Source: Halarchaeum grantii (GTDB taxonomy: Archaea > Halobacteriota > Halobacteria > Halobacteriales > Halobacteriaceae). Taken from it: DNA of 64,000 nucleotides. Position numbers and translations under genes: made by a program. The stretch covers positions 62,001-126,000 of the forward strand of contig NZ_BMPF01000002.1 in NCBI RefSeq assembly GCF_014647455.2, given 5' to 3'. Within the stretch, counting starts at the first letter, position 1; each line of letters begins with the position of its first letter. The notes below the pieces were generated by a model. That model was given only the letters and a program-made list of their open reading frames with translations. It did not search any database and had not been told where the DNA came from. This document shows, piece after piece, positions 14,955-57,563 of the stretch.

Positions 14955-17672
14955 ATGGGTTTACACGGACGGAGCGTCCGGCAGGACGTACGGGAGTTAG
15001 GCGACCTCCTGGGTGAAGCGGTCGAACGACACGCGTCCCGAGACGCCTTCGAGGCCGTCGAAGACGCGCGAACCGCCGCGATCGACTATCGTCAGGGGGA
15101 GACGTCGACGCGCGACGAACTCCGGAACGTCCTCGCGGAGAACGACGAGGAAGTCAACGCCTCCGTCGCCCGGGCGTTCACGACGTATTTCGAATTAGTG
15201 AACTTGGCCGAGGAGCGAGAGCGCGTCCGCTCGCTCCGCGAGGACGAGGACGACGGCACGCTCGCCGACAGCCTCCCCGCCGCCGTCGAGCGCCTCGCCG
15301 ACGACGGCGCCGCTCCGTCCGACGTTCGGGACGTCCTCGAGGCGGTTCGCGTCGTCCCGACGTTCACGGCGCACCCGACCGAAGCGCGCCGGAAGACGGT
15401 GAAGGCGACGCTCGTCCGGGTGACCGACCTCCTCGAGGAACTCGACCAGCACCGCCTCACGAAGCGCGAGCGCGCGAACAAACTCGCGCGCCTCGACGCG
15501 CTCGTCGAGAGTCTCTGGACGACGAAGCAGGTCCGCGGGCGCCGCCCCGAGCCGTTCGACGAGGCGCGCAACGTCCACTGGTACCTCGCGAACGTCATCT
15601 TCGACCAGGTCCCCGAGATGTACGCGCGTCTCGAGGACGCCCTCGAGGAGCACTACGAGGAGCCGCCGGCCGTCCCCGAAATCCTCGACTTCCGCTCGTG
15701 GGCCGGGAGCGACCGGGACGGTAACCCGTTCGTCACCCCGGAGGTGACGACGAAGACCCTCGAGCGCCAGCGCGACCTCGTCGTCGAGAACTACCGCGAC
15801 GCCCTCGACGACGTCTCGGGCGTCCTCAGTCAGGACGCGACGCGGATGGACCTCGCCAGCGTCGAGGCGTCGCTCGACCGGGACGCCGAGCGCGTCCCCT
15901 CGCTCGTCTCCGGCGCGCGCGAGCGCTACCCCGACGAGCCGCTGCGCCAGAAGGTGCTCGTGATGTGGCGCCGGCTCGGGCGCATCACCGACGTCCGTCC
16001 CGGCGGCTACGACGACTACGAGGAGTTCCTCGCGGACATCGACGTCGTCGAGGACGCCCTGCGCGCGAACGACGCCGACCGCATCGCCGACGAGTACATC
16101 GACCCGCTCGAGCGCCAGGTCCGGACGTTCCGCTTCCACCTCGCGAGCCTCGACCTCCGCGACCACCAGGAGATGCACACGGGCGCGCTCGAGGAGGCAC
16201 TGGAGCGCGAGGGCGTCGATTATAGGAGTATGGACGAGGACGAGCGCGTCGAGTTCCTCACCGAGGCCACGCTCCAGACGGAGAACGTCCTCGACCTCAC
16301 CGACACCGAGGACCTGAGCGACGAGGCCGCGCGCGTGCTCTCGCGCTTCGACGCGCTCGGCGGCTGGCACGAGGAGTACGGCGAGGAGGCCATCGACACC
16401 TACTGCATCAGCATGACCGAGCGCCCGAGCCACGTCCTCGAAGTGCTCTTCCTCGCCGATCAGGCGGGCGTCGTCGACCTCCCCGAGCACTGCGGGCTCG
16501 ACGTCGTCCCCCTCCTCGAGACGGAGTCCGCGCTCGCGAACGCCCGCGAGACCATGGAGACCCTCTTCGACAACGACGCCTACGGCGCGGCCCTCGAAGC
16601 GCGGGGCACCGTTCAGGAAGTCATGCTCGGCTACAGCGACTCGAACAAGGAGAACGGCTTCCTCGCCGCGAACTGGGCGCTCAACGAGGCCCAGCGCAAA
16701 CTCGCGGCGATCACGGACGACCTCGGCGTCGAGTTGCGCCTCTTCCACGGTCGCGGCGGCTCCATCTCCCGCGGCGGCGGCCCGATGAACGAGGCGCTCC
16801 TCGCGCTCCCGCCGGAGACCGTCACGGGCGAGGTGAAGTTCACCCAGCAGGGCGAGTCCATCGCCGAAACCTACGGCAACCCCTACATCGCCGAGCGGAA
16901 CCTCGAACAGATGCTGAACGCGCAGATCCGCGCGCGCCACGACGCGGTCTCCCGGGGCGACTCGACGGCCCTCGACGACCCCGGCTCCGACATCGACGCC
17001 GAGTGGGAGACGGCGATGGAGACGATGGCGAGCGCCGCCCGCGACGCGTACGTCGACCTCCTCGGCACCGAGGGGTTCGTCCAGTACTTCGAGCAGGCGA
17101 CCCCCATCACGGTCATCGAGGAGCTGAACATGGGCTCGCGGCCCGCGAGCCGCTCGAAGGAGCGCTCCGTGGAGGACCTGCGGGCGATCCCGTGGGTGTT
17201 CTCGTGGACGCAGAGCCGCTGTATCGTCCCCGGGTGGTTCGGCGTCGGCACCGGCATCGAGGCCTATCTCGACGCCGGCGGTGACGTCGAGACCCTACGC
17301 GAGATGTACGAGGCGTGGCCGTTCTTCCGGACGATGCTCGACCGGGCGTCCATGGCGCTCGCGCGCACCGAGATGGAGATCGCCGAGGAGTACGCCGACC
17401 TCGCCGACCCCGACCTCCGCGAGCGCATCTTCCCCACCATCGAGTCCGAGTACGGGCGCTCGAGCGACGCCGTCCTCGACATCACCGAGGCGGACGCGCT
17501 CATCACGCGCGAGTGGCTCACCGAGAGCCTCGAACGCCGCAACCCCTACGTCGACCCGCTCAACCTCCTGCAGGTGGACCTCCTCCGGCAGAGCCACCGC
17601 ACCGAGGCGGCCGAGCAGACGCTGCGCCTGAGCGTGAAGGGGATCGCCGCCGGCATGAAGAACACCGGGTAG
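14955..17672 (+). CDS. ppc: Phosphoenolpyruvate carboxylase
   Basis: 905 aa, the bacterial-type length. Catalytic motifs are all visible: VPTFTAHPTEARRKTVK with catalytic His140, GYSDSNKENGFLAANW, FHGRGGSISRGGGP, EELNMGSRPASRSKER, RAIPWVFSWTQSR, and the canonical C-terminus GMKNTG. It carboxylates PEP to oxaloacetate with bicarbonate and Mg2+ (EC 4.1.1.31), replenishing the TCA cycle. The start at 14955 is supported by a TATA element 27 nt upstream. A structured repeat begins 4 nt after the stop codon (17677 onward). Confidence 0.97.
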   Translation: MGLHGRSVRQDVRELGDLLGEAVERHASRDAFEAVEDARTAAIDYRQGETSTRDELRNVLAENDEEVNASVARAFTTYFELVNLAEERERVRSLREDEDDGTLADSLPAAVERLADDGAAPSDVRDVLEAVRVVPTFTAHPTEARRKTVKATLVRVTDLLEELDQHRLTKRERANKLARLDALVESLWTTKQVRGRRPEPFDEARNVHWYLANVIFDQVPEMYARLEDALEEHYEEPPAVPEILDFRSWAGSDRDGNPFVTPEVTTKTLERQRDLVVENYRDALDDVSGVLSQDATRMDLASVEASLDRDAERVPSLVSGARERYPDEPLRQKVLVMWRRLGRITDVRPGGYDDYEEFLADIDVVEDALRANDADRIADEYIDPLERQVRTFRFHLASLDLRDHQEMHTGALEEALEREGVDYRSMDEDERVEFLTEATLQTENVLDLTDTEDLSDEAARVLSRFDALGGWHEEYGEEAIDTYCISMTERPSHVLEVLFLADQAGVVDLPEHCGLDVVPLLETESALANARETMETLFDNDAYGAALEARGTVQEVMLGYSDSNKENGFLAANWALNEAQRKLAAITDDLGVELRLFHGRGGSISRGGGPMNEALLALPPETVTGEVKFTQQGESIAETYGNPYIAERNLEQMLNAQIRARHDAVSRGDSTALDDPGSDIDAEWETAMETMASAARDAYVDLLGTEGFVQYFEQATPITVIEELNMGSRPASRSKERSVEDLRAIPWVFSWTQSRCIVPGWFGVGTGIEAYLDAGGDVETLREMYEAWPFFRTMLDRASMALARTEMEIAEEYADLADPDLRERIFPTIESEYGRSSDAVLDITEADALITREWLTESLERRNPYVDPLNLLQVDLLRQSHRTEAAEQTLRLSVKGIAAGMKNTG

Positions 17673-17676
17673 GCGG

Positions 17677-17760
17677 TCGGCGGGACCGAGCGGAGCGAGG
17701 GCCCGCCGGACGGCGAGCGGGGAGCCTACGACCCGCGAGCGACCCGTGCGACGCGAGGCC
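17677..17760 (+). repeat. Dispersed structured repeat copy after ppc
   Basis: A hairpin immediately follows the ppc stop: left arm 17678-17687 and right arm 17699-17708 pair over ten positions with one A-G mismatch (plus a terminal G-U), enclosing an 11-nt loop GAGCGGAGCGA. Downstream lies a tail of the form GGCGAGCGGGGAG...ACGACCCGCGAG that is nearly the same as the tail of the copy at 57358-57421 (GACGAACGGGGAG...ACGACCCGTGAG). The position suggests a 3'-end stabilising or terminating structure, but the conserved tail implies something more specific. Not a known named element to me. Confidence 0.6.
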
Positions 17761-17866
17761 CCGCCGACCACCGGACGGCGAGCGTGTCACTCCGTCTCGC
17801 GGTTCTCGGCCCGGCGTTCGGGTTCCGTCGGCCTTAATCCCGTACGCGGCGTCGTCCCGACCACGA

Positions 17867-56973: not shown

Positions 56974-57357
56974 ATGCGTATCGCACTCATCGCACACGAC
57001 GAGAAGAAGCCGGACCTCATCGACTTCGCGCAGAGCCACGAGGAGCGCCTGCGGCAGTTCGACCTCATCGGCACCGGCACGACGGGCAAGCGCATCATGC
57101 AGGAGACGGACCTCGAAGTGGAGCGCAAGGCCTCCGGGCCGCTCGGCGGCGACATGATGATCGGCGCGGAGGTCGCGGAGGGCGACTGCGAGGCCATCAT
57201 CTTCATCCGCGACGTCCTCACTGCCCAGCCCCACGAACCCGACATCTCCGCGCTGTTGCGCATCTGCGACGTCCACGACATCCCGCTCGCGACGAACATC
57301 GCGTCCGCCGAGCACGTCATCGACGGCCTCGCCGCCGAGATCGGCGCGGACGAGTAA
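56974..57357 (+). CDS. mgsA: Methylglyoxal synthase
   Basis: 127 aa from the ATG at 56974; a GTG two codons upstream also exists. Active-site motifs: ALIAHDEKKPDL (His), IGTGTTGKRIMQ, KASGPLGGDMMIGAEVA (catalytic Asp), FIRDVLTAQPHEPDISALLR (Asp and His). It converts dihydroxyacetone phosphate to methylglyoxal and phosphate (EC 4.2.3.3). Allosteric phosphate loop residues are conserved. The first structured repeat overlaps its stop region, starting 1 nt after the stop. Confidence 0.95.
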   Translation: MRIALIAHDEKKPDLIDFAQSHEERLRQFDLIGTGTTGKRIMQETDLEVERKASGPLGGDMMIGAEVAEGDCEAIIFIRDVLTAQPHEPDISALLRICDVHDIPLATNIASAEHVIDGLAAEIGADE

Positions 57358-57421: not shown

Positions 57422-57485
57422 CGCGGTTCCGAGCGACACGAGGAACCGCGAGGAGGCGAACGGGGTGTACGCGGTCCCGACGGGA
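57422..57485 (+). repeat. Structured repeat, unit 2, tandem
   Basis: 64 nt, head to tail with unit 1. Perfect 9-bp hairpin CGCGGTTCC / GGAACCGCG (57422-57430, 57442-57450), loop GAGCGACACGA. Two stem pairs differ from unit 1 by compensatory change (T-A to C-G at positions 3 and 9 of the stem), while the CGAACGGGG block follows 35 nt after the unit start in both. Confidence 0.65.
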
Positions 57486-57553
57486 TGGGGCCGCGAACCG
57501 AACGGTGGAACCGTGAGGAGCGACCCGCGAGCGGCGCGGCCCGAGCGAAGTGA
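57486..57553 (+). repeat. Degenerate third repeat unit
   Basis: Contains GGAACCGTGAGGAGCGACCC, which matches the right arm and following bases of unit 2 with small differences; the left arm and loop appear collapsed to a short ACGGT-GGA-ACCGT hairpin (57502-57514). Ends in GAGCGGCGCGGCCCGAGCGA just before the nth gene's 3' end. Confidence 0.4.
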
Positions 57554-57563
57554 CGGCGCCGCG

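Follow-up and report, generated by a model that had tools for sequence, protein, structure and literature searches.

Short inverted repeats lie directly after two genes, ppc and mgsA, in the 64,000-nt stretch of Halarchaeum grantii DNA analysed here (the window, meaning that whole stretch; both gene names are taken from a preliminary description of it). The locus raises two questions: whether these repeats belong to one family, and whether they serve the 3' ends of genes or are mobile DNA that survives there.

Anatomy of the repeat unit

The features at ppc are as follows.
17670–17672, plus strand: ppc stop codon, TAG
17678–17708, plus strand: hairpin 1, a 10-position stem (arms 17678–17687 and 17699–17708) with an A17685·G mismatch, enclosing the loop GAGCGGAGCGA at 17688–17698 (cap GA-GC-GGA-GC-GA); homologous hairpins follow ppc in H. 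nitratireducens and H. rubridurum
17709–17716, plus strand: linker with a conserved CGA at its end
17717–17736, plus strand: hairpin 2, GCGGG (17717–17721)-GAGCCTACGA-CCCGC (17732–17736), followed by GAG
17740–17772, plus strand: remnant of a second unit, with an arm at 17757–17769 pairable with 17675–17687; L056 has an intact second hairpin here

The features at mgsA are as follows.
57355–57357: mgsA stop codon, TAA
57358–57386, plus strand: hairpin 1 of unit 1, 9 bp, loop GAGCGTGGCGA, directly 3' of the TAA
57396–57414, plus strand: hairpin 2 of unit 1, ACGGG-GAGGGACGA-CCCGT
57422–57450, plus strand: hairpin 1 of unit 2, 9 bp, loop GAGCGACACGA
57451–57560, plus strand: further degenerate units, reaching a convergent endonuclease III-like gene

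Each unit of the family consists of a hairpin 1 and a hairpin 2. The ppc copy (17673–17772) and the mgsA copies (57358 onwards) are members of one family, as the preliminary description proposed, and its view that they are not a recent duplication also stands, since stem sequence varies between copies. It placed the ppc element at 17677–17760. The element is located there, but its distal arm can pair with the 5' arm (17757–17769 with 17675–17687, 12 pairs and one mismatch), so that it extends slightly beyond these limits, over approximately 17673–17772. The predicted RNA fold takes this alternative distal pairing, about 70 nt further on (z −3.9); the predicted DNA fold is unremarkable (z −0.7). 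The ppc gene has its nearest relatives in H. nitratireducens and H. rubridurum, at 85% identity. The hairpin is homologous in the three species and includes one A-T/G-C compensatory pair, the neighbour of which is broken in two of the three.

Hairpin 1 has a variable stem of about 8–11 pairs and a "loop" that is often 11 or 12 nt long and in other copies 3 nt. Across 87 different hairpin 1s, identified from the stem only, Watson-Crick pairs outnumber all others by 723 to 47. GA stands at both ends of 30 of the 35 distinct 11–12-nt loops, and in 29 of these 30 the loop positions 3 and 9 (or 10) form G-C, A-T or C-G, the remaining one being G·T. The GA ends and the pairing of the next positions thus define a cap made of a tandem G·A step (GA/GA), two pairs and a tiny loop of 3–4 nt. 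The conserved loop first noticed at these loci is therefore real as an 11-nt class, but it is not open, being itself paired through tandem GA and covarying inner pairs. Likewise, the nearly identical tail is conserved, although it is a second hairpin, hairpin 2. Both tandem GA in a C-GA-G context and tips of the C-GNA-G type form stable structures in RNA or DNA. Extraordinarily stable mini-hairpins are described in the available part of PMC10527192.

The sequence of hairpin 2 is RCGGG-GAG..CGA-CCCGY, with CGA before it and GAG after it. In 216 matches (77 from four Halarchaeum genomes and 139 others, the latter being 150 listed places minus 11 collapsed tandem duplicates), the free positions mostly read GA-G-NNN-C-GA (9 nt) or GA-GC-NNN(N)-GC-GA (11–12 nt), and GNA is the most frequent tip. 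Covariation is seen at the closing pair of the stem (G-C 99, A-T 93, G·T 14, A·C 10).

The proportion of G·T to A·C was considered as a discriminator between RNA and DNA and set aside as uninformative: in the stems of the 87 hairpin 1s, G·T (6) is no commoner than A·C (10), which gives no family-wide support for selection at the RNA level. An unsupervised scan of a 464-kb sample of the H. grantii genome for perfect stems with 2×2 internal loops supports the cap weakly, because most family stems carry a mismatch; GA/GA makes up only 4 of 150 such loops and is joint top, with its complement, only at stems of at least 8 (3 of 28). A·G accounts for 14 and G·G for 12 of the 47 hairpin 1 stem mismatches. 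A stem subtype AACC..GGGC, or RCC..GGG, recurs in hairpin 1 (L074, L096, L086 and others) and has a conserved purine·G mismatch three pairs below the GA cap.

Copy number and distribution

Taken alone, the loop motif could be explained by a high G+C content and by codon usage. GAGCGNNNCGA occurs 95 times in the window versus 26 expected from shuffles, mostly through codon usage, and GAGCGNAGCGAG shows no excess genome-wide (26, versus 52 in the reversed control). Because it is common for this reason, the loop motif is not diagnostic by itself and was discarded as a family marker. The loop alone is thus not evidence of more than chance; the loop with its stem is. Stems with 9 or more pairs and no more than one mismatch accompany 3 of the 95 loop motifs versus 36 of 127870 background positions, and the three are the ppc hairpin and the two mgsA hairpins. 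A loose hairpin 2 pattern occurs 44 times in the H. grantii genome and 0 times in reversed form; some of the 44, inside genes and without the CGA and GAG flanks, are probably chance matches. These controls refute a chance origin of the family, an explanation to which we give practically no credence.

The strict hairpin 2 pattern has 31, 11, 7 and 28 copies in four Halarchaeum genomes and 0 when reversed; the genome with 7 is referred to as G002. The pattern is present in 184 of 293 genomes of the order, with 0 reversed among the matches listed, and in 52 of 81 genomes of a second, overlapping draw from the order. It is found in 0 of 311 genomes elsewhere in the phylum, an absence that high G+C confounds and for which the reversed pattern also counts 0 among the matches listed. 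Array neighbours, as judged from the hairpin 2 sites listed, lie on the same strand, head to tail. Two regular arrays are seen in other genera, one of 7 hairpin 2 copies with a 77-bp period (G148:C1:2168941-2169429) and one of 5 copies with an 87-bp period (G175:C1:1986482-1986854). The 64-kb window has 0 matches to Rfam families at the gathering threshold, and BLAST of the element against plasmids and phages returns weak, chance-level matches, none of them haloarchaeal. Literature searches, mainly of papers outside subscription, found no description of this hairpin family.

Position relative to stop codons

The copies were said to start 1–4 nt after a stop codon, which is about right: the distance is 0 nt at mgsA and 2–5 nt at ppc. 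Set against chance, as had been proposed, abutment on stops is far above expectation in Halarchaeum. With tandem units within 400 nt collapsed to the first (as also in the ortholog-sharing counts below), the sense stop of a long frame lies 15–45 nt upstream of hairpin 2 at 43 of 66 sites, compared with 7 of 66 in the mirror-image antisense test, whose count is raised by the long open frames that G+C-rich DNA contains. Hairpin 1 usually begins at −1 to +2 of the stop. A hairpin 1 is detectable at 46 sense sites that come first in their array; its start is no more than 3 nt from the stop at 26, is 9–21 nt before the stop's end at 5, with the stop in or beside the hairpin, and is further away at 15. 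Under random placement, a start at −1 to +2 would be expected for about 1.5% of the nucleotides in downstream gaps, or for 15% when the average is taken over genes. At 16 of the 26, a GAG or GAA codon immediately precedes the stop, versus 15.9% of gene ends (p = 1.8e-7). The stop link is weak in 14 genomes of other genera (sense, 6 of 29; antisense, 0 of 29), where the codon-phase gene caller is unreliable. Some of the "CDS" and "far" labels given to sites are wrong.

In one orthologous group the stop is a TGA within CCCGTGAG of hairpin 2. In L107, L125 and L187 (near 1500), from three species, the element encodes the protein tail and hairpin 2 gives the TGA stop. Annotation is affected, as elements can supply both stop codons and C-terminal tails. 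In L095 and L191 each repeat of the tandem unit includes the gene's own stop (TAG or TAA), indicating that the duplicated unit there begins before the stop.

Sense orientation at gene ends would also suit an intrinsic transcription terminator or an RNA-processing signal. In the available part of PMC7237163, a Haloferax hairpin gave 59% termination in a reporter, and Haloferax has hairpins at or near RNA 3' ends, where the present ones would also lie. In the same text, however, the intergenic terminators of Haloferax are T stretches, and the family has no adjoining T tract. A hairpin followed directly by a U tract, as in an intrinsic terminator, is found at 1 of 66 sites (TTTT no more than 15 nt past hairpin 2); within 100 nt, TTTT is present at 11 of 66 sites, near the general 47 of 320 gene ends. 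Copies also lie within coding regions, and a terminator or processing signal is a very improbable explanation of the family.

Insertion, retention and turnover

Comparisons with related genomes show lineage-specific insertion and spread at the DNA level. First, dapF of H. grantii contains 44 extra in-frame codons that spell a whole unit and that three of three relatives lack (dapF, Bud32 and nfo are presumed names, read from the translated proteins by their motifs). Second, the mgsA array has no counterpart in the syntenic relative G002, in which about 17 nt separate mgsA from the convergent gene; in G001 and G003 other genes lie beside mgsA, with no element there. A Bud32-like linker in H. 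grantii also carries a unit, and the linkers of its relatives differ and are partly similar. Reading of element-bearing frames alone places at least four sites of other genera (L155, L162, L167 and L168) in open frames that run through the element. The filled and empty dapF sites reveal no obvious target duplication by eye. A host-derived left arm, made by fold-back copying of flanks, was rejected, as the dapF and mgsA sites of the relatives have no left arm. The dapF gene with the insertion is L139 (G000:C2:169683-170648); in the Bud32-like kinase L133 (G000:C1:916903-917505) the element lies in the linker ahead of the LIDFGLG motif.

For copies inside coding regions a 3'-end role is impossible. 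The 3'-end role suggested at first is in line with stop abutment in Halarchaeum; a role at 3' ends only is opposed by the in-frame copies, by the absence of the mgsA array from G002 and by the low count in other genera. The proposed link to central-metabolism genes is not supported: other hosts include nfo, dapF, a Bud32-like coding region and unnamed genes. We favour, with a probability of about one half, a REP/RPE-like mobile palindromic element that is retained at the ends of genes as a 3' hairpin of the mRNA. Copies would spread as DNA, either through an enzyme acting in trans or by recombination or conversion between copies. Those landing at gene ends would be tolerated, and some may be retained through the action in mRNA of a hairpin abutting the stop. 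There, the hairpin would be the first thing met by a terminating ribosome or a 3'–5' exonuclease, and once transcribed it could be a barrier to such exonucleases or a brake on the ribosome. E. coli REPs near stops are described as acting in this way; ribosome stalling is reported for REPs no more than 15 nt from a stop in the available part of PMC12306157. On this reading, archaea gain a REP/RPE-like element whose tandem GA caps are a structural code recognisable across an order, and stop-touching hairpins would be natural experiments on the control of archaeal mRNA decay and translation termination.

The same copies might instead be purely selfish REP/PATE-like DNA that survives mostly past stops since other places are harmful. 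The in-frame copies, the polymorphic presence of the mgsA array, the tandem arrays and the weak stop-adjacency in other genera are consistent with this, as is the cap type, tandem-GA/GNA caps being suited to single-stranded DNA hairpins recognised by ssDNA transposases. However, sense starts at −1 to +2 of the stop are more exact than tolerance predicts (about 1.5% or 15%), and the nfo hairpin is retained in all of four species. Moreover, no Y1 transposase is linked: PF01797, the parent sought for a MITE-type comparison, has five matches in three of the four Halarchaeum genomes, their flanks lack the hairpin 2 pattern, and G002 carries 7 elements yet has no match. Mobilisation by a RAYT is thus unsupported, and the selfish explanation is possible, if on the unlikely side.

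The resemblance to known repeats is partial. Like the RAYT-mobilised REP/REPIN elements of E. coli and Pseudomonas, the family consists of multicopy short palindromes that are mainly extragenic and often just 3' of genes. It is unlike them in having no linked Y1/RAYT gene, in units arranged head to tail and not as inverted doublets, in a variable hairpin 1 stem with a conserved cap, and in its restriction to haloarchaea in the genomes searched. REPs also carry a conserved foot tetranucleotide. Rickettsia palindromic elements (RPEs), characterised in the available part of PMC10969869 as palindromic elements of about 100–150 bp inserted in frame in unrelated genes, are alike by description in entering protein genes such as dapF; the present family differs in its haloarchaeal host, in having most copies at gene ends in sense and in its two-hairpin tandem-GA anatomy. 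PATEs and small mobile repeats of Haloquadratum walsbyi, again compared by description (PMC3119063, available part), are likewise palindrome-bearing, transposase-less mobile repeats of a haloarchaeon. In that text PATEs have IS605-like near-terminal palindromes; for the present family, the PF01797 flanks gave no such link, as they lack the hairpin 2 pattern.

Orthologous gene ends keep the element and rewrite it. At eight such ends, nfo included (12 pairs of sites), coding DNA is 83–95% identical and four-fold sites are 68–79% identical (9 pairs), yet the identity of 5' arms is 0.49, versus 0.47 in unrelated elements (1882 of 5000 random sets are as high). Fifty of 100 stem positions have changed on both sides, with both states Watson-Crick, versus 1 on one side; L181 (group C) and L199 (group I), units elsewhere relative to the gene, are left out of this comparison, and one group I hairpin (L111) is probably mis-paired in it. 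H. grantii and G003 have 5 sites in common, out of 28 and 21, respectively, where about 0.2 would be expected if some 3000 genes were equally likely. The shared sites and turned-over stems together indicate that many of these gene ends keep the element while its letters change.

Any one of three processes is enough to explain this turnover: re-insertion at favoured ends, conversion by other copies, or arm-copying. The block turnover at the eight gene ends fits re-insertion or conversion as well as it fits selection. Palindrome maintenance at the DNA level, by template switching in the hairpin or by conversion, would rewrite both arms without selection; it is in keeping with the excess of two-sided changes and with 5' arms hardly more alike than those of unrelated elements beside four-fold sites that are 68–79% identical. 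In contrast, the nfo and ppc stems are clearly homologous and change pair by pair, with two G·U states, and independent re-insertion would give the same picture at the other sites, so that maintenance of this kind appears doubtful. A stop-marking hairpin cassette would go further: its presence and architecture (stem, tandem-GA cap, second hairpin and a position at or around the stop) would be kept at orthologues while both arms are rewritten jointly, at a rate above that of synonymous sites, which would imply dedicated DNA- or RNA-templated renewal of the palindrome, with a role in translation termination or protection of the mRNA 3' end. We consider such a cassette unlikely.

Strong selection on pairing accounts best for nfo and ppc. 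In four of four species the nfo stop codon lies inside the hairpin; no strict hairpin 2 lies downstream in G002 and G001. Pairs counted directly, excluding from the counts an alignment that places a gap in the stem, comprise 34 Watson-Crick and 2 G·U of 36. Both partners have changed at four pair positions, and the C-terminal codons of the protein vary along with them, which suggests that structure can outweigh the encoded tail.
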